DNA from: Zingiber officinale
Lineage: Eukaryota; Streptophyta; Magnoliopsida; Zingiberales; Zingiberaceae
Direction: 5' to 3'
Length of the DNA stretch: 64,000 bases
Assembly (NCBI RefSeq): GCF_018446385.1
Contig: NC_055989.1
Span: 133,327,004-133,391,003 of the forward strand
Shown here: positions 3,430-62,500 of the stretch, in pieces
Layout: each line of letters begins with the position of its first letter
Position numbering within the stretch: the stretch's first letter is position 1
Notes under the pieces: model-generated
What the model was told of the DNA's origin: nothing
The model's database searches: none
Seen by the model: the letters and a program-made list of their open reading frames with translations, nothing else
Position numbers and translations under genes: made by a program

Positions 3430-6400
3430 TGTTGGGATTTTCGGGCCGTAAAAACCGCTTTTTCGCGTTACGGAAACCCCCCATGCCACCGGATCCGTGC
3501 GAAGTTTATAAAACAAAATTTTCATGTACGAGTTTACTAAAGCCTAGATCTACACTAGGAGAAGAAATTTACCCTCGATGCGATGCCCTTCGCAATCCCG
3601 CTTGTCAAACGGTTCGCCGGATCTCAAAATCGTCAAGTGTACGATCCTCTAGAAGTATCCACACAAACAAACTAGGTGGGGAAGACCAAACAAAGGTGTG
3701 CTAGCACCTTAGATTGTTCGGCCAAGGAGGAGGAGAGGGAAAGCAAGAAGAGAGGAAGAAAGAGAAATGAATGCCTTGAATAAAAATCAAATTTTCATCC
3801 ACCATAAGTGGTCGGCCACATAATGGAGTTGTAACCTCCATTCTCATTTAATGTGGCCATTAAAGAGGAGATTTGTAACCTCCATGAGGTGGCACACACA
3901 TGTGCTAAACATGATGATGTGTAACACCATTATTGGCCACTTAATGCCAACTCACAAATGAGGTGGCATATAGTCAAGCCAAACTTGACTTTTCCTCTTT
4001 CTCTCAAGTCAAATCAAACTTGACATTATAACTCCCATGGTTGATCAAATCCAACCATTTGATTCGAGCAAATTTAATATAATGGATCTAATTCATTTAA
4101 TTAAATTGATTCAATGAGTCATAATCTAAATTAGACTCATTGAACATATGCATCAAATTGAGTCCAACTCAATTAGTTCAATTAGGATTACTCTTAATCC
4201 AATTTGATTCATCATATGAATCTAATTCTCTTGGTTCATCATATGAACCTAATCTCCATCTAATTGTCCTTTGTGTGTGACCCTATAGGTTCTTATAACG
4301 TTGGCAATGCTCCTAAACTCATTTAGAAGCATAAGTAATGAGCGGTATCTAGCAATCAATCATTACTACCCAAGTTATAAGAATGTTGAGATCCAACATC
4401 ACCTTGTGACTACTAATTGTGACTCCTCACAATATATGACAAGTGCCCTTCTTGTTAGAGTGTATACTAAAAGTCTAGCTTTTGGTATAAACATTTATCT
4501 AGAAATAAGAATCACATTGGTCAAATGTCTACATTTATGATAAATGTAGTTGCTCAATTAATTTATATTGTAGATAACATGGTGTGTGGTGTCACATACA
4601 GAAGATCATATTATCGGTTCCTTATAAATTATAAACAGTAGCTCACGACCAAGATGGAAAGGAACAAACCATTGGAAGGTCGTAGTGTAATTAGGTATTA
4701 GTTTATCTTAACTATATAATTACACTAGTACACTTAGAGTGTATTGAGTAGGACCATTTGAGGTCGTTTCTTTTATACTGACTTTATAAAGAAACAAAGA
4801 CCTCGGTTATTATGGAAGTGTGTGCTCTTAATCCTAATATAATAACAAGCACATATATTTGATATTTATTTCTTTAATTTATCAATGGGTGAGATTTAGT
4901 TCGATGAATCAATAAGCTCGATAAATTGGGAAATGATATCACTTATAGTGTGTGTTGTTGATTATAGAAGGAAACTGTGTCCTAGTAATCTAGGTTGAGA
5001 ATGTCCCCAAGAGGAGCTCATAAGGATTGTCATGTTAAACCCTGCAGGTGGACTTAGTCCGACATGACGATGAAGTTGAGTGGTACTACTCTTGGAGCTA
5101 GATATTAATTAAGTGAGTTGTCAGTAACTTACTTAATTAGTGGACATTTGTTATCTTAAATACAGGGAGACTAACACACTCATAATAAGAAGGAGCCCAA
5201 AATGTAATTTGGGATTGGTGCGGTAGTTCAATAATAGTTCTCTAGTGGAATGAATTATTATTGATAAAATTAAGTTGTGTGTTCGGGGCGAGCACGAGAT
5301 GCTTAATTTTATCGGGAGACCAAAACCAATTCCTCCTCTCGGTCCCTATCGTAGCCTCTTAATTATAAAGTACTATATCCACCTATACCCATCTTCTTAC
5401 CCATCCTATAGGGGTCGGCCAAGATAGCTTGGAGACCAAGCTAGGGCCGGCCATGGGTATGTTCATGGGTGAATTCATGTGGCCGTCCCTATTAAAATAA
5501 AAAGGAATTTTAATTTTAAAAATTTTCTTATGTGGATAATATAATTTAAAAGAGAGTTTAAAAATTTAAATCCTTCCTTTTATAAGATTCTACGAAAGAT
5601 TAAGAGAAGAGTTAAAATCTCTTTCCTTATTTGTAGATTAAAAGGTTGATTTTAATTTTGGTAAAAACTTTCCTTTTAATTATATTCATGATTTAAAAGA
5701 AAGTTTAAAAATTAAAAATTCTCTTTTATTAGTTTCTACAAAAGATTAAGAAAAGATTTAATATTTTTCCTTATTTGTAGATTGAAAGGAGATTTTAATT
5801 TTTAGAGATAACTTTCCTTTTTGGAAATTATCCACATGTTTAAAAGAAAGATTTTAATTTATAAAATTTCTTTTTATTAACCAATCATGAAAGGATTAAA
5901 ATTATTGGAGAAATTTTTATAAATTTCTAAAAACAAATTAGGAAGTTTTAATTTTTGTTTTAATTAAAACTCTCCTTGTTTTGGGGAGAAGAGTGGCCGT
6001 CCATTATAATTTGAAAAGAGAAAATTATTTTAATTAAATAAATTTTCCTTTTCAATGGCAAAAGAATTAAGGAAGTTTTTATTAAATTTTCCTTATTTGC
6101 CAAGACCAAGGATTATAAAAGAGGGGGTAGAGGAGGCTTCAAGGCTAACGACTCTATTCTATTTTTCCTCTCTTTTCTCCTTGGGTGTGGCCGACCCTTT
6201 CTTTCCTCTCCTCTCCTTTGTGTGGCCGAAACCTTCTCATGGTGGAGATAGCTTTGGTGGCCGGATCTAAGAAGGAGAAGAAGGAGAGAAAAGAAGCCTC
6301 TTTCTAGCATCCCTTGGAGCATGGTGGTGGTGGCCGAACCTCTTCATCCTAGGAGAAGTTTTGATGGCGAAACTTGTAAGGAAGAAGAAGGTGCTTGGTG

Positions 6401-25821: not shown

Positions 25822-28406
25822 ATGCGGCGGCGGCGCCCTGCAATCGCCCTCTGTGATCGCCTCGACATCCCCGCCGAATCCATGGCGATTCCAGACGGAG
25901 GAGGAGATGATTTTGACGTATTACGATGCTCCACCCCTCTCACCGTCTCCTGGCATCGCTGCCTCAAGCGGAAGCTGGACGAGAGGGACTCAGGTGCCCG
26001 TTGCCTCTCTTTCTTCACCGGCGAAGACGGTGGCAACGAGAATGGGTTTGCTAGGGTTGACATAGAGAACGAGGCGGCGGCCCTGAGGGAGGCACTAGCC
26101 AGCCACAAGCAGTCCGTTGAGAAGCTCCTCGCAGAGCTGGAGGAGGAGCGGAACGCCTCATCGTCTGCGGCCACCGAAGCGATGTCAATGATTATCCGGC
26201 TCCAGCGCGAGAAGGCGGAGGCGCAGATGGAGGCGCGCCAGTTCCGCCGTCTCGCCGATGAGAAGATGGCCCATGACCAACAGGAGATCGCCGTCCTCCA
26301 GGATCTCCTCTTCAAGCGCGACCAGACCGTGGAAGCCCTAAATTGTGAGGTCCAGGCATACCGCCATCGCCTCCTCAGCTATGGCATCGGCGTCGACGAC
26401 GGTGACGAGCCTCCCTCTGAGCCGCAGACACCTGACACTGCCACCACAACGCCCACCCGCGCTGCTGCCGGCTCCCAATTCGATGCCCTCTCTCGTGACT
26501 ATCCGGCATTGCGGTGCGCCGATGATTCCGCCGCCGACCTCGACAAGTACAACTCTGGAGAGATCCCCTGCGCCGCTGATTCACCCCGCGGGCCGTTTCG
26601 CCCGCGCATTCACCAGTTCGAGCGGGTGCAAAGCGGCAGCTTTCGCAGTTTCAAGGACAAAGGCGTCGTGGTGAGGCAGTCCTCGCGTCGGTGGTCGAGC
26701 CATGTCAGGAGCTTCTCCTACGGAAGCTTCAGCTCTGGCCTGGAATTCCCAGTCGACGACGCATCCGACTGTGGCGCGAGAGACGACATCAGCGACAGAG
26801 TCTACACCGTGGACGCTGTGCACGGAGCGACAGAGGACTACGTGAGCACGCCGAGGGAGCTCCATGGCAAAAGTGGAATCGAGGATGAAGCGCAAGAAGC
26901 GGAATTTAAGAGACTTTACTTGAGGCTGCAGGCCCTCGAGGCGGATAGAGAGTCGATGCGGCAGAGTTCGATCTCCATGGGCACGGACAAAGCTCAAATT
27001 ACACTTCTGAAAGAGATCGCGCAACAAATGTGCAAAGAAGTGGCAACTGAAAGAAAGGTGGTGAAGAGGTCGTCTTCCATCAAGAAGTCCTCTTCACTTA
27101 TGTCAACGGTTAAGGTGCTAGTTTATCTTTTTAAAATTTGAGTTTATTGGTTCTACTTTCAAGTGCAATGCAGGTAATTTATTGGGAAAAATTAGACAAA
27201 AGGCCACATTTGATTCACTGAAGAAAGCCTATTTGCCAGACACATCAAAACTAATAGACTAGATATGTCTCTACTTCTAGAATTAGGTACTTCATCTGTT
27301 GGTTAAAAGGCCAGATAATTATCTTGATCCTGTAGGAAAAAAAAATTCCACAATACTTTTCCAGGTTTCCTTATTCTCATTTCTTCTGTGTCTGAGAAGG
27401 AGTGTTTGTGTGGGAAACAGAGAGCTTATTATAAAATTTCAGCTTATGCGTCAAGTATCTTGATTCAGAGTAGAGCACAATTCAATTCCTTAATGATCAA
27501 TCAATTGAGACAGTGAAATCCTTGTAAGATAGATATAATTGCATAATGTATCCTAGTTTTAACATGCTTCCTGTATCATGACTAACAGGTACTGGCCTAA
27601 ATTTGAGACCATATTGAATTAGGGCTGACTTTGTTTCATCCAAAATAATGTGTGCCAATTAAGAGAAGAAACACTTCTACTATATCGGCGAAGCTCATTG
27701 CATCTCAAAATATTAGTTACTTGAGAGAGGAAAACCCATTTAGTATAATGAATTGTCATATTTGTCAATGCACGAATCAAACATACTGGCCAACCTTTCA
27801 TATCATGTTGAATTAGGTGGAATTGTTTCATTCTAAATTGATTAGTCACTTGGCATAGGGAAGCTTTTTAAATTTCTGAACATATTGGATCACTACACTT
27901 GTTAATGTATGTCTCTGAGGTACTGTCCTAATTTTGCTACCATGTTAAATTAGGGTACTAAACACTTCATTCCCATGAGTGATAAGTTTAATTGATTCCA
28001 AGTTATTGCATTCTTATTTTACCTGGAATGCTAGATGTCCTAGTATCAGTTATCATTTGCAGTTAATCCTAATTTCTCAATAACATGTGTCATGCCTTCT
28101 CTTCTTTTGATTTCTGTTCTTTTTACAGAATGTCATCTCAATTGTTTTGTGGAGGAAAAGGTCATCTCGTGTCAAGTAAGTTCACATCATCTCATTGATA
28201 TACTAATCTGCTAATTTCCATCTCAGGCCAATAAACGCTGAACTTATCGTTTCTATTCTACTAGATTTACGTTTGGGTTATCGTCAAACAATGCCGGATT
28301 AGTACTACTCTTGGAAAAATCTTCTCCCCGTTTGAGGCACAAGAGGCTCCTCACAAAAGCACAGGGCTCAGGGATGAGTCCTAAGCATCGGGTGCTCACA
28401 ACCTAA
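25822..28406 (+). CDS. GTD-binding (DUF593) myosin-binding-type protein
   Basis: GTD-binding domains bind the tail of plant class XI myosins, and such proteins act as cargo adaptors on actin. Exon 1 (to 27114) has the domain at about residues 84-190, a long coiled coil with LHKQSVEKLLAELEEER-like and EVQAYRHRLLSYGI-like blocks. A disordered, serine-rich middle follows, then a second coiled coil at about 355-420. A small exon at about 28130-28175 reads a hydrophobic then basic stretch (LWRKRSSRVK). Exon 3 (28265-28406) reads FTFGLSSNNAGLVLLLEKS, the C-terminal signature I know from the MYOB7-like members. The protein would be about 490 residues. I could not settle the phase of the 46-base middle exon with certainty. 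Two in-frame starts exist; the second (25882, CCATGG context) is the stronger one. No N-terminal membrane anchor is seen, unlike the long MYOB1-type members. Confidence 0.85.
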
Positions 28407-41143: not shown

Positions 41144-41226
41144 GTTGACAGGTCTGGAGGACTAAACACCAGGCTGAAATCCGGCTAGGTATGCAGGACC
41201 TGATAGCTGATGCGAAGTCCAGATAG
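41144..41226 (+). mobile_element. LTR-like fragment, left of the CACTA insertion
   Basis: This short piece carries the motif GACAGGTCTGGAGGACTAA. Joined across the CACTA target duplication TAG, it reads smoothly into the repeat-bearing sequence at 45791-46500. Together they form one LTR-like relic interrupted by the CACTA element. Confidence 0.5.
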
Positions 41227-42085
41227 CACTACAACAAAAACTGCAAACGACAACGGATATTATCCATTGTCGTAGGGTCAAAAAATCGTTGTAACTGAGG
41301 GTATTGTAGAATGTATTGTCCTACGACAACGGTTTTGAATCCGTTGTCTTTGTAGACATTCGACAACGGTTTTTATCCGTTGTTGTTTATATGCTCAAAA
41401 TTTATTTACGAAGGATACGACAACGTTTTTAAAACCGTTGTAGTAGATAATTTCGACAACAGATATAAACCGTTGTGGTAGACTCTTTTTACAATAGATA
41501 TAAACGTTGTGGTATATAATTTTAATATATTTTACAACGGATAAAACCGTTGTCTTTTATCACTTTTTTAAAAAAAAAATCCGTTGTGGTTACGTACTTT
41601 TTACAACGTTTTTAATCATTGTCTTTAAGGTTCATGATGTAACATGATAATACCAAACAACCAATCTTTATTTAATATAAACAACCACCAATACAAAACT
41701 AAATACAAAATATGACAGCTAAAATATACAAAATGAGTTGTACTCATCAAACTTAGTAGTATCAAACCATAAATCACATGTTTTCCATTATTGTTCTCTA
41801 TATGACTTTTACACATTAGCAAGGCAAGATAGAACCTAACAAAGCTCACTCCTTGCATCAAAAATCTCAAGCCTCACGAATTGCCCGAGTTACGTACCTA
41901 CAAGAGAAAAATTAAACAAAACTTATCAAAAAAATATAAAATATAAGAAAAAAGAGAATTGTAGTAAGTACTGCATGAACTGTAACCAGAGAATAAATAT
42001 TTCGCATAGCTCTAATATCTGGACATGAGAGAAGGATTTCCAAAATTCCAGGACAACACTCAATGTCTGTAAAACGGAAGAGAAA

Positions 42086-42412
42086 AACTTATTCAATACA
42101 AACTTATGCAATATAAACTTATAATCTCTAAGAAATAAAACTTATGCAATAGAAACTTATGCAATACAAGCAATTTAACCAACTTAGAGTTGTCTTGGTA
42201 ACTTCCATGTGCACCATATCAATCACCTTTAAACCTTTTATAGAAAGTGACATAAGAAACTACCATGTGCACCTGCATTCATACTTCAATAGTGAGGGAG
42301 TTAGGCTTAATGGTCTAAAAATAGGAACTAATGTAATAAAAACTAACAGCAGATACATAAACTAAAGAAAAGCAGAATTTAGAACTGATTTTAAAATGAG
42401 AGGGATAAAATG
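42086..42412. repeat. Direct duplication inside the CACTA element, copy 1
   Basis: Pairs with about 43463-43750 in the same orientation. Both copies contain GCAATTTAACCAACTTAGAG, CACCATATCAATCACCTTTA and GGAGTTAGGCTTAATGGTCT in the same order with only scattered differences. The M14 exons lie between the copies, so the duplication brackets them. Confidence 0.85.
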
Positions 42413-42597
42413 AAAGATATTTTCAGGTGACTAATGCATATAATCCACTTTAGAGTTCTGGTATGACTTGAAATTACAAAGATCTAAAAACAATTTAACT
42501 AAGAAAAGTGTAAAACTAACAAATGACTGGAGATTTCAGGATTTAGTATTTGTATGATTTGTCAAAAGGTTTCTTTCAAGTTCTTGTTTTATGTTAC

Positions 42598-43272
42598 CTT
42601 TATGACAAGGTTATCTAGCAGTTTTTGGATGAACATAAGATCCACTCTTTGCATATTACGTTCTTTGGCTAAAATAGAAAGTAGTTGCCAAGCTACCTCA
42701 GAGGTAATAAGTTCTCTCCCATGTTGTCCAAAGCTCTGGAATACAAGGAATGTTCTGTCACAAATATGAACCATTAAAATCTGACAAAATTGCATTAAAC
42801 ATCATGCAAAGGATATCATACAACTTGAATGACTTTAAGTTTTTTTCACTTTTAGAATATTTAAATTTAGATAAACTCTTCACTGTGAAAATGAGTTAGA
42901 TGCAAAGAAAGTACCATAATTACTTTGGATATCCAAGTTTAGTACCTCTTATTTAGCACAACTTGGTGCTATTATTACTTCACCATGTAAATATCTGCCA
43001 GATGTAAATTCATACTACTTACCAGAAGTATCCTAAACTTTGATTGGTCATCTATATCCTCCGTATGTCGATTGTACGTGACAACCAAAATCTCTGCAAC
43101 ATAGCCCTTATTGCCTGCTTTTATAGTTTCCATCTTATACCAATGATTTTACTCGGCTTAGAAATCATCAAGAAACTAAGTGTTTGATAAAGGACAATAA
43201 GCTGAGCCACTTACAGTCAAAGTATCTGGATGTCGAACTACCGTCACCTTAATTTCTTTCAATAAAGCATCA
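42598..43272 (-). pseudogene. Captured exons of an M14 zinc metallocarboxypeptidase
   Basis: Three exons lie in gene order on the minus strand, with GT-AG borders and matching phases. 43272-43215 reads DALLKEIKVTVVRHPDTLT. 43133-43023 reads METIKAGNKGYVAEILVVTY and on to KFRILL. 42735-42598 reads SFGQHGRELITSEVAWQLLS and on to LLDNLVIK. They match the plant carboxypeptidase typified by Arabidopsis At5g42320, from just before the catalytic domain into its first part. The HGRE zinc-ligand motif (HxxE) is kept. The following exons, with MVPMENPNGR and the Arg/His substrate and zinc residues, were not found. The capture is therefore partial and cannot encode a peptidase. Introns came along, so the source was genomic DNA, not a processed copy. 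Confidence 0.88.
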
Positions 43273-43462
43273 CTGAAGAGTTTCACAAGACAACATTTCA
43301 GTAAGGAAACTAGAGAAAAAAAAATTAAGATAACTCTTATAACTGGAAACATGAATAGCACAACATTCATCAAAATTATCGATTGTCCAAAGAAGAACAT
43401 GCCTCCATGCGTCAAAATAGAGCAATCACAAGATGAAAATTTTCAAACCCTTAAAAAAACTT

Positions 43463-43750
43463 ATTCAATACAAACTTATAGTCTATAAGAAATAAAACTT
43501 ATGTAATACAAGCAATTTAACCAACTTAGAGTTATCTTGGTAACTTCTATGTGCACCATATCAATCACCTTTAAACCTTTTATAGACAGTGACATAAGAA
43601 ACTACCATGTGCACCTGCATTTATACTTAAATAGTGAGGGAGTTAGGCTTAATGGTCTAAAATAGGAACTAATGTAATAAAAACTAGCAGTAGATACAGG
43701 AACTAAAGAAAAGAAGAATTCAGAAATGATTTTAAAATGAGAGAGGGATA
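43463..43750. repeat. Direct duplication inside the CACTA element, copy 2
   Basis: Second copy of the unit at 42086-42412, about 290 bases long and slightly shortened at one end. Confidence 0.85.
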
Positions 43751-44879
43751 AAAAGAAAATCATCAGCCATAGAATTTACAAAATGATTCAAAATGATCCC
43801 AAATGAAGTTCAACCATCTTTTGAAGTGTTATTTAAAGGTAGAGGAAATTTATTTGCATTTTAATATAATGGGAACACCAAGAAGGTAAATAAAATATGC
43901 AGGAACATAGATATCAAACCTTTAGTTAATTCAATTTGTCAAATTGTATAATACTTTTCCTTACCAATGGTATAATTTCTGACACCAAACTTAATTGCTT
44001 GAACTATCAAACATTATCTATAATATTGTTTGCATTTGATTAAGGAGCACACAACAGTTAAAACACTAATATTAAATACTATATTCAAGGATATTTTGGT
44101 ATTGCTAACATTAACTTTCATATGTATGTTTTTAGTGATAATAAACTGAAATCCTTAAATTCATATCCTTGTATCAGAAATCAAAATTAAAATTAGTTGA
44201 TTATTCAAACTAACCCTCACTAAAAAAGTACACAAAATCAAATTATTCTACAAAAGAGCAACGAATTATAACAACTTACAATACAATGAGAAAGAAGGCT
44301 TATCTGACAAATGCAATACTTCTTTGATGATTGAAAATCTGTCAAAAATATGTTTAAAATGTATGTACATATGAAAGTCGGTAGATTATGCTAGAATACT
44401 GCATATTGGTTCGAGTCAAACCGGGTGACAGTAATGCTGAATATTAAAGGTGTAAAGGACAACACTCTAAATAAAATTGAATAGGAAATAAAGTAATAGC
44501 TAAGAACAATTTGATCCAGGAAGGAAAAAAACTGCAGAAATAAGAATCATTTAGGAATGTGTTAAATAACTGTCAAACTAAAGTTCCTTGATACAGGAAG
44601 AAAAAAACAATGAAAGCATGAATTGGGCACGGAGCGATAATATCAATTTTGAACTAATCCAACATATTGGGGAATCGTCTTCAATGTAAACCAGATTTCG
44701 ATAATAATCAACAAGGCAAGAGTCAGCAATCGAAGAGAATAAAAAGCTAAAATTAACTCAAATATGGGCCTCCAAAAGAGTAAAAAACAAATTTCGATCA
44801 AAAGCTCAAACTCCAGTTTTTAAGGAATCGGTGACGAAGAAGATGACAAAAGAAGGATTATTAATTACCCGTAACCATC

Positions 44880-44964
44880 GACGAATCACTACTGCTCTCA
44901 GATTACAAAACTGTGTTCGCCGATCCACACCTCTCTGTAGTGTTCGATAATCGCTCCTGCAGTC

Positions 44965-45001
<37 letters not shown>

Positions 45002-45245
45002 TGCCGAAGCCCCATCTGCGTTTCTCCTTGCAGTCCGCCGGGAGCTCGCTGACGCCTGTCTTCTTCCCGTTGAGAAGTCCCCGCAACCACCTGGCGGCGG
45101 GCCCTATCCGCTCACTGCTCCGTCGCCCACGATGACTCCCCCATTCCTCACTCAAATCCGCAGCTAAGGCCACCAAAGAGCGAGAAACCAACCCTAAAGC
45201 CACAGCAGCAAGGAAAAGGAAGAAAGCTAGCAAAGAGAAGATCAA
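44880..45245 (-). pseudogene. Signal-peptide-bearing exon inside the CACTA element, source unclear
   Basis: A GC-rich exon-like segment in an otherwise AT-rich element. From 45245 the minus strand reads a strongly hydrophobic start (MIFSLLAFFLFLAAVALGLV). A hydrophilic GC-rich stretch follows, then a GA/CT microsatellite at about 44967-44997 and a possible donor near 44872. It sits upstream of the M14 exons on the same strand. It may be that gene's own first exon, since plant members begin with a signal peptide, or a second captured gene. I cannot decide which. Confidence 0.45.
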
Positions 45246-45790
45246 AATAGATTGGAAGAGAAAACACGTGCGAAATACGTAGTCAAAGAGCCAAAGAAGC
45301 AGCAGTGGAAGGTACTCGTCGAGATTAGAAACCCGCTCACCAAGAAACGAGAAGAGAGCACACTATCGTGGAGGAAGATCCAGCGGAGACGACACCCCTT
45401 ACTGTCGCGCGGTTGACAGGATGACGTGAAGAGATGGTATGGGGAGAGGGAAAGAAAAATGGCTTAGGGTTCGGGAATGCGAAGGGGAAAATAAGGCGCT
45501 GAAAAGATTTGCGGAGAGAGGGAAATGACAAAACGAATAAAATTAAATACAACGGTTTTATCAAAACTGTTGTCGTAGCCCCTAAAAAGCGCTTAAAGAC
45601 AACGGATTTAGAAAACCATTGATCGCTCAATGACAACAGTTTTTCCAAAACTGTTGTCTTTTATATTTAATGCGGAGTTCAAAGACAACGATTTTGGCAA
45701 AAACCGTTGTCTTTGAGCAAATACACAACACTTTCTCTTAAAACTGTTGTCGTAGGGGTGTTGTCGTTTGTAGTTTTTGTTGTAGTGTAG

Positions 45791-59574: not shown

Positions 59575-62500
59575 ATCTTCCACTTATACTAAAAGACTAA
59601 GCTGCCATATCTGTTGCCTTACATCTGATTCTCATCCCCTCTACATGCCGATCAAAAGCTTTCGCCGGAAGGGCCTTTGTGAAAGGATCTGCTAGGTTAT
59701 CTTCTGATGTAATCTTGGCGACGACAACTTCTCCTCACTTGACGATGTCTCGTATCAGGTGGTACTTGTGCTCTATATGTTTACTTGTCTTATGAGCTCG
59801 TGGTTCCTTCGAGTTTGCAACTACACTGCTATTATCACAATAAATTGTGATGATTTTGGGCAAACCAGGAATCACATCTAAGTCCATTAGAAAGTTCCTG
59901 AGCCATATAGCTTCTTTGGCTGCCTCAGAGGCTGCCACATATTCAGCTTCCATGGTTGAGTCCGAGACGTATTTCTGCTTAACACTCCTCCATGCAATGA
60001 CTCCACCTCCTAGAGTAAGCACATAGCCTGACGTAGACTTACTATTGTCCCTATCTAATTCGAAATCTGAATCCGTGTAACCCACAGGGAGCAAATCGTC
60101 TATTTGGTAGACTAGCATATAATCTCTAGTCCTTCTCAGGTACTTTAAAATATGCTTCACAGCAGTCCAATGTCCTTGTCCAGGGTTACTTTGATATCTG
60201 CTAACCATGCCCACGGCAAAACAGATATCAGGTCTCGTACACAGCATTGCATACATAAGGCTTCCTGCAGCCGACGCATAAGGAACTGCCTTCATGTCCT
60301 CAATCTCCTTTGATGTCTTCGGGGACATCTCTTTAGATAAGGCTACTCTATGCCTAAAAGGTAAGAAACCTTTCTTGGAGTTTTGCATGCTAAAACGAGC
60401 AAGGATTGTATCTATATATAAAGCTTGGGATAGACACAACATTCTTTTCTTGCGATCCCTTATAACTTTGATCCCAAGAATGTGTGCACATTCTCCTAAA
60501 TCCTTCATATCAAATTGTTTGGACAACCATACCCTTACGTCCGATAATACCTTGACATTGTTGCCAATTAACAAAATATCATCTACGTATAATACAAGAA
60601 AAACCACCACATTTCCATTACACTTCTTATATACACAAGACTCATCCGGACACTGAATAAATCCATATGACTGGATTACTTCATTAAACCGGATGTTCCA
60701 AGATCTTGAAGCTTGCTTCAGTCCATAAATGGACCGATTAAGCTTGCACACTAGATGATCTTTGCCTTTTTCAATGAACCCTTCTGGTTGCTTCATATGG
60801 ATGTTTTCTTCAAGACTTCCGTTAAGGAAAGCTGTCTTGACGTCCATTTGCCAAATCTCATAATCCATATGAGCGGCAATGGATAAGAGTATCCGGATAG
60901 ACTTAAGCATGGCTACCGGAAAAAAAGTCTCCTCATAGTCGATTCCCTCTTTCTGAGTATATCCTTTCGCAACAAGTCTTGCTTTGAAGGTTTCTACTTT
61001 CCCATCTGCTCCTCTTTTCCTTTTGTAGATCTACTTGCATCCAACAGCTTTTACACCATCAGGTGGTTCTATAAGCTCCCAGACCTTATTAGAGTACATA
61101 GATTCTATTTCAGAATTCATTGCCTTTTGCCAAGATACTGCATCTATATCTTGGAGTGCTTCATCATATGTCCGGGGATCAGGTTCATGTTTACCCGGGA
61201 TCAAGTCCAAAGACTCTCCCAAAAACATGAATCTCTCAGGTTGCCTTACAACCCTCCCACTACGACGAGGCACAGTATGTGGTTGTGTATCATGTGTGAC
61301 ACGTGTTGCAGTCTCTTGTGGTACTTCATCTTATACTGTTGGACTGAAGTAGACGTGTCCTCTCTAATTTCTTCTAGAACTATTTCACTCATGGGCTTAT
61401 GGTTGATTACATAATCTTCTTCAAAAAATTGAGCATTGGTGCTAACAATGATCTTCTGATTTTTAGGATTATAAAACAAACCACCTTTCGTTCCCTTAGG
61501 ATATCCCACAAACAGACAAACTTCTGTACGTGATTCGAACTTGTCAGTATCTCCCTTCAGCACATGTACTGGACTACCCCATATCCGGATATGATTCAAA
61601 CTAGGCTTACGCCCATTCCATAATTCCATGGGAGTAGAAGGAACTATTTTAGAAAGTACCATATTTAGAATGTACACTGCTGTTTCTAAAGCATATCCCC
61701 AAAACAAATTTGGTAATTCTGAATAATTCATCATCGATCTAACCATTTCCATAAGAGTCATATTCCTTCGTTCTGCCACACCATTCTGCCGGGGTGAACC
61801 AGGTGCAGTCAATTGGGATTGAATCCCGACTTCTGATAAGTAATTCCTAAACTCTCCAAAGAGATATTCGCCACCATGGTCAGACCGTAGTGTCTTGATA
61901 CTTTTACCAAGATGTTTCTCCACATCAGCCTATATTCTTTGAACTTGTCAAAGCATTCAAACTTGTGGCGCATCAGGTAAATGTATCCGTATCTTAAATA
62001 ATCGTCTATAAAAGAGACGAAGTATTCATAACCACCTCTTGCTTGGATAGACATAGGACCACACAAATCAAAATGAACCAGTTCTAATGCATCTTTGGCT
62101 GTATACCCCTTGGCCTTAAAAGGTCTCTTGGTCATTTTTCCTTCCAAGCAAGATTCACATGTTGGAAAGTTTTCCAACTCTAATGAACCCAAGAGTCCAT
62201 CGGCTACAAGCCTTTGAATCCTACTTAAGTTAATATGTCGAAACCTTAGATGCCAAAGATACGTTTGGTTCATCTCTGAAGGTTCTTTTCTCTTATTAGA
62301 GTTAGAAGATGTGTTATTAATTTTCATATTTTTCTTTGTGGGAGAAATTAGATTTAAAGTGTATAATTGCCAACCAATGCACCAGAACAGATAATCACCT
62401 TATTTCTCTTTATAACGACATTGTTACTAAAGGAAACTGAATATCCATCCAAATACAGTTTAGAAACTGAAATTAAATTCTTTCTAAAACTGTGTACATA

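Follow-up and report, generated by a model that had tools for sequence, protein, structure and literature searches.

The window analyzed here, a 64,000-nucleotide stretch of Zingiber officinale DNA, contains a complete, non-autonomous CACTA element of 4,561 bp at positions 41227–45787. Its 28-bp ends (41227–41254, plus strand, and 45760–45787, minus strand) form an inverted repeat that matches at 27/28 positions, the sole mismatch being position 17, and the end begins CACTACAACAAAAACT..., a terminal inverted repeat (TIR) start of the CACTA/CACTG type that marks CACTA (En/Spm) transposons. A 3-bp target site duplication (TSD), TAG, flanks the element at 41224–41226 and 45788–45790. Arrays of short words in both orientations lie inside both ends, as is usual for this class: of the ACAACGG/CCGTTGT words in the element, 10 lie in its left 420 bp, 3 in its right 260 bp, and 0 in the middle; the other 59,439 bp of the window contain 6. 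The left array (41248–41626) falls within a left end of ~740 bp that is common to a transposase-bearing relative (77%). The right array (45549–45755) falls within the native right end (45290–45787, minus strand), which corresponds at 79% identity to the promoter/leader end of the same relative. Allowing at most one mismatch, the 28-bp end is found at 648 + 668 places in the genome (1,316), and the reversed control gave 0. The listed open reading frames of the element include no long transposase frame, and alignment found no homology between its interior (outside the ends) and the transposase-bearing relative. An initial annotation of this DNA had claimed the matched 28-bp inverted repeat, the TAG on both sides, the subterminal word arrays, and the lack of a transposase, and had read the whole as a gene-capturing CACTA element with intact ends; these observations uphold the individual claims and support the overall reading.

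The cargo includes a segment of an M14 carboxypeptidase gene, introns included, at 42408–43462 on the minus strand. Three exons were placed from reading frames and the donor gene at ~43215–43272 (DALLKEIK...), ~43023–43133 (METIKAGNKGY...), and ~42598–42735 (SFGQHGRELITSE...); these positions are approximate, and the first exon begins 8 nt inside its frame piece. In the consensus of the copy family (described below), AG precedes and GT follows each exon, which bears out the three splice-bounded exons of the initial annotation. Its suggestion that a donor carboxypeptidase locus be sought also proved fruitful. Over ~1,056 columns, introns included, the segment is 93.1% identical to a gene on C7 (C7:5769001–5773000, L037) and 92.6% identical to one on C8 (L038), and the family consensus reaches 94.1% identity to the donor. 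The donor runs on into downstream exons that are absent from the element. We assign the captured exons to the M14 family because the joined donor exons, including the downstream ones, match PF00246 in Pfam (E = 6.8e-23); of the element's own three exon frames, one gave PF00246, below threshold (E = 0.099), and the captured exons span only part of the M14 domain. Since the introns were kept, the piece was most likely taken up at the DNA level. A comparison of donor and captured introns, likewise suggested earlier, shows that the consensus differs from the donor at 17 of 708 intron/flank sites (2.4%). Other M14 genes were considered as donors and dropped. A diverged paralogue at C5:161.73 Mb matches the element at 76%, compared with 93% for C7/C8. 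The genes at C5:56.52 Mb and C6:45.00 Mb, which we take to be SOL1/CPD-like, have no DNA match to the element and belong to another M14 type.

A second captured fragment lies at 44996–45290, on the same strand as the M14 segment. It derives from the start of an IQ-motif gene, of which it has the 5′ leader and about the first 37 codons, and is 88.1% identical over 295 bp (91.5% for the consensus) to a locus on C5 (C5:150341501–150347500, L030), with a similar place present on C6. The C5 locus continues into an IQ-motif frame (PF00612, E = 4.1e-5) and further exons; we presume the gene to be IQD-like. A TATA-like word lies in the donor upstream of the captured stretch, and the core promoter of the gene therefore seems to have been left out. 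At 45105–45107, the position of the IQ start codon, the element has ATA. The same holds for 18/18 copies that retain the codon, the place being missing in 2 of the 20 copies read. A minus-strand frame at 45362–44967 was considered as an M14 signal-peptide exon but rejected, as it belongs to the IQ-motif gene. A further stretch of the window, 44635–44964, matches C8:130391917–130392242 at 87% and is a possible third donor match. This second fragment was not part of the initial annotation, nor were the direct repeats around the M14 segment (42085–42415 and 43457–43758) or the multi-copy nature of the element.

Further copies with the same ends, which the initial annotation had proposed to look for, do exist. 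A genome search with the whole element gave at least 64 matches (best 40 of 3,238 candidates scored). Twenty family loci were read, of which 12 are full length; L011 and L014 represent a single site sampled from two haplotypes. Perfect 3-bp target duplications flank 11 of the 12 full-length copies, the exception being L006, and family copies differ from their consensus by 1.4–2.5%, mainly through transitions. Exon 4 of the M14 cargo is present at 31 family loci, as counted from the genome search list, and its 4 other matches are the C7/C8 donor, the C5 paralogue, and C17:15.42 Mb. The same ends and cargo thus occur at many unlinked places with differing 3-bp duplications. When the flanks of the element are joined with one TAG, the resulting empty site is contiguous at 39/39 other scored places, the best being C3:153806972–153807443 (89%); this flanking sequence is dispersed repeat DNA, and the best 40 of its 9,375 candidate places were scored. 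Nothing was found in favor of the idea that a resident gene or pseudogene at this site supplies the M14 exons, with CACTA-like ends present by coincidence. The unlinked copies with their different duplications, the contiguous empty sites, and the position of the donor elsewhere (C7/C8) all speak against it, and we regard it as next to impossible. Nor do the exons run across the element borders into a complete gene, an arrangement that the initial annotation had named as contrary to its reading. The element lacks a transposase, contains host DNA with donors elsewhere, and has moved together with its cargo, the properties of a Pack-CACTA. We consider it very probable that 41227–45787 is such a gene-carrying, non-autonomous CACTA transposon, a judgment that takes in the mobilization and capture history proposed below.

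A candidate source of transposase is an 11,895-bp relative (L043, C1:71100346–71112240), both of whose 28-bp ends are identical to those of the family (28/28). It shares the outer ~746 bp on the left (77%) and ~523 bp on the right (79%) and has a matching 3-bp duplication. An 814-aa frame contains Transpos_assoc (PF13963), Transposase_21 (PF02992, E = 1e-98), and DUF4218 (PF13960), with DUF4216 (PF13952) in the frame that follows; the relative thus encodes a predicted TNP2-type transposase. No TNPA gene was identified in it. The end equivalent to the element's right end is the one from which the transposase is read inward. Because the 28-bp ends are identical, we infer that the element is a substrate in trans for the putative TNP2-type transposase. 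It would have moved by cut-and-paste, each insertion creating a 3-bp target duplication.

Seven sibling elements of 4.2–5.3 kb with the same ends, chosen for their size among the entries at the head of the list of ends, were used to examine other cargo. All seven contain host-gene-like pieces. Pieces of PEPCK are found in L045, L048, and L051 (by a Pfam pass for L045 and by similarity for the other two), and ankyrin repeats in L047 and L049 (Pfam pass for L047). The cargo of L050 was read as an ABC transporter and that of L046 as the start of a ubiquitin-conjugating enzyme, both from sub-threshold Pfam scores (27.4 versus 28 and 17.3 versus 25 bits for L050; 19.9 versus 27 bits for L046). The 3-bp target duplications match in 8/8 other elements. 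In 7/7 siblings the reading direction of the cargo runs from the promoter end into the element, which is also true of the M14 and IQ fragments studied here, and across the eight elements the distinct host fragments are in sense in 6/6 cases. The two-sided chance of this outcome in a coin toss is ~0.03, for a small sample in which the M14 and IQ fragments share one element. Should the sense bias be general, capture or survival of cargo would be coupled to transcription through the element, possibly because sense cargo supplies usable splice sites.

Given that the captured exons follow the promoter end in sense orientation, a transcript of the element would carry spliceable exons. This orientation, the splice sites retained in the consensus, and the mostly open frames of the three M14 exons would suit an active chimeric gene under selection. 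The changes private to family members, 32 synonymous, 79 non-synonymous, and 6 stops, also show pN (0.0173) below pS (0.0230; pN/pS ~0.75), with captured introns at 0.0136. Against such a gene, across 315 exon sites the consensus has 12 non-synonymous changes relative to the donor and a single synonymous one, the 6 stop changes fall across 5 of the 20 copies, the IQ start codon is uniformly ATA, and the M14 domain is covered in part. We consider an active chimeric gene very unlikely. The exon changes look near-neutral, as read from the counts without a formal test; with these and the ATA codons in view, no protein function of the captured fragments would seem to be indicated.

The M14 segment sits between two direct repeats, XA (42085–42415, plus strand) and XB (43457–43758, plus strand), which in the family consensus measure 333 and 335 bp and are 96.1% identical (11 mismatches in 335 bp, 3.3%). 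In present copies XA and XB are 7.2% apart, more than XA is from XA (2.8%) or XB from XB (2.4%), and we conclude that X was doubled before the family spread. At joint 1 the donor and the repeat end have AAAAGAAA in common, an 8-bp match in which the chimera has one substitution; the donor and the repeat start share AAAAACTT, also 8 bp, at joint 2. Among random joints between donor locus and element interior, matches of at least 8 bp occur at a frequency of 0.00025 and matches of at least 5 bp at 0.008. The tail of X was then located genome-wide. A 20-mer from it, with at most two mismatches, is found at 116 places (4 in the control), 100 of which were listed. Judged by eye among these 100, two X tails 1.21–1.42 kb apart occur at 26 family loci. 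One X tail accompanies the element's right part at nine M14-less relatives among the matches listed (C8:74014732, C8:97422218, C7:154253538, C11:47091607, C4:16363347, C4:125788785, C3:19271594, C13:41319176, and C12:47283199), M14-less meaning that the locus gave no match in the genome search with the cargo exons. For two more relatives, at C21:83.75 Mb and C22:77.52 Mb, no X tail is among the matches listed. With two tails where M14 is present and one where it is not, the M14-bearing lineage is the one in which X was doubled. An exact single-X, M14-less element was sought with a gapped pattern, which had 0 matches, and was not seen in the best 40 of 996 candidates; at the C11, C12, and C3:145.18 Mb loci, three M14-less relatives in which both halves were located, the distance from start to tail of X is 1.7, 0.9, and 2.5 kb, where ~75 bp would be expected. 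These results, like the substitution at joint 1, tell against a simple capture history of the kind proposed next.

One history that would produce this arrangement is template switching with an upstream return. Repair or replication would have left the element at the end of X through an 8-bp microhomology, copied ~1.05 kb of the M14 gene antisense to the left-to-right reading of the element, and re-entered the element farther upstream by way of a second 8-bp match, at the start of X. X would thereby have been copied a second time; the chimera would then have spread to at least 31 loci. This route accounts jointly for the doubled X and both microhomologies, and we give it roughly an even chance. 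The alternative is fusion, in which element copies inserted on either side of an M14 segment lost their inner ends and the outer ends then mobilized the entire unit as a single element. The doubled X would then be the overlap of two truncated copies. Fusion is the model of Catoni and colleagues for plant Pack-CACTA/Pack-TYPE elements, as given in reviews and by Gisby & Catoni, and it predicts the observed layout of element part, host DNA, and element part. The divergence of XA from XB (3.3% in the consensus, 7.2% in present copies) exceeds that of the introns from the donor (2.4%), as it would if the two copies of X were different before they were joined, a caveat that attaches to template switching. 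The nearest M14-less relatives also resemble the left half of the element more strongly (identity up to 96%) than its right half (at most 90%), but the same gap is seen within single loci (95%/90% at C11; 94%/88% at C12) and may be a rate difference. Fusion does not require 8 bp of microhomology at both joints, although deletion repair could yield such matches, and the 4-kb stretches read at the donor locus contain no element copy, which could have been lost later. We regard fusion as possible but unlikely for this element.

In five of the seven siblings no direct repeats were found around the cargo and the other two have internal tandem repeats, leaving such repeats unsupported as a general rule. 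That the CACTA clan as a whole uses microhomology-guided template switching, and not neighbor fusion, to capture genes, and keeps only, or nearly only, sense cargo, is a conjecture that we would not expect to hold. How cut-and-paste transposons acquire host genes is still debated. In ginger, one assembly offers the donor, the chimera, its family of copies, relatives without M14, and one relative that encodes a transposase, and the joints can be read to the base, which makes the two capture models testable from a handful of relatives. The 6/6 sense bias, if upheld in a larger sample, would tie capture or retention to transcription.

Capture by microhomology-guided template switching has been proposed for animal Pack-TIRs, as gap filling or FoSTeST with a median microhomology of 2 bp, in a report that calls the question open for plant Pack-MULEs (PMC8277862). 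The proposed mode of entry is alike, whereas the hosts and transposons differ (PMC8277862); for plant CACTA elements, no report of such capture is among the matches listed from the non-subscription literature. Soybean Tgm-Express1 likewise combines several unrelated host gene fragments in one CACTA element; it reportedly has five, with exons and introns spliced into demonstrated transcripts (PMC1947982), whereas for the ginger element such transcripts are putative. The Tpn1 family of the unrelated plant Ipomoea nil is described as having 28-bp TIRs, 3–5 bp TSDs, subterminal repeats, and hundreds of non-autonomous copies with host genic regions but few with transposase (PMC5105172). It resembles the ginger family in TIR length, TSD, subterminal repeats, and gene-carrying copies, a likeness drawn from the published description; for the ginger family, two cargo donors and the copies of one chimera are described. 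Closest in kind are the Pack-CACTA/Pack-TYPE elements of Arabidopsis, rice, and maize, for which the published capture model is fusion of neighboring insertions (PMC8903248, PMC13317346). These too are non-autonomous, multi-copy CACTA elements with TIRs, TSDs, and pieces of host genes inside (PMC8903248, PMC13317346). The ginger element differs in combining pieces of two distinct genes, each in sense orientation, and in the ~335-bp direct repeats that flank its M14 piece, with microhomology where the piece joins them on either side. It is a further member of this known kind, and a well-preserved one with traceable source genes and relatives.

Seven sibling CACTA elements with the same 28-bp ends as the window element carry other cargo: PEPCK pieces (L045, L048 and L051), ankyrin-repeat pieces (L047 and L049), an ABC-transporter-like piece (L050) and a ubiquitin-conjugating-enzyme-like piece (L046). 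The host-gene-like pieces of all seven are sense with the promoter end, from which the transposase of the 11.9-kb relative reads inward. L046 also contains, at 3436–4030, tandem units of ~177 bp similar to the start of X, the direct repeat flanking the M14 piece in the window element. Window positions 44635–44964, within the element, match a place outside the element's family (C8:130391917–130392242) at 87%, and are possibly a third captured piece or else a relative of the element.

Two family copies, L011 (C5:16.7 Mb) and L014 (C6:11.07 Mb), represent one insertion in two presumed haplotypes (flanks 97–98% identical, elements 95.6%). The contig strands are opposite, and the haplotypes may differ by an inversion at this site. 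Two truncated copies, L020 and L021 (C14:67.63 and 67.64 Mb), have flanks 96–99% alike and appear to sit in a ~14.5-kb segmental duplication.

Elsewhere in the window, Copia-type LTR retrotransposon pieces with RVT_2, integrase and gag domains lie at 59735–62327 and 882–1978, both on the minus strand. A 439-amino-acid frame at 25822–27141 (plus strand) matches the Zein-binding domain (PF04576, E = 7.8e-32) and is likely an exon of a resident host gene.
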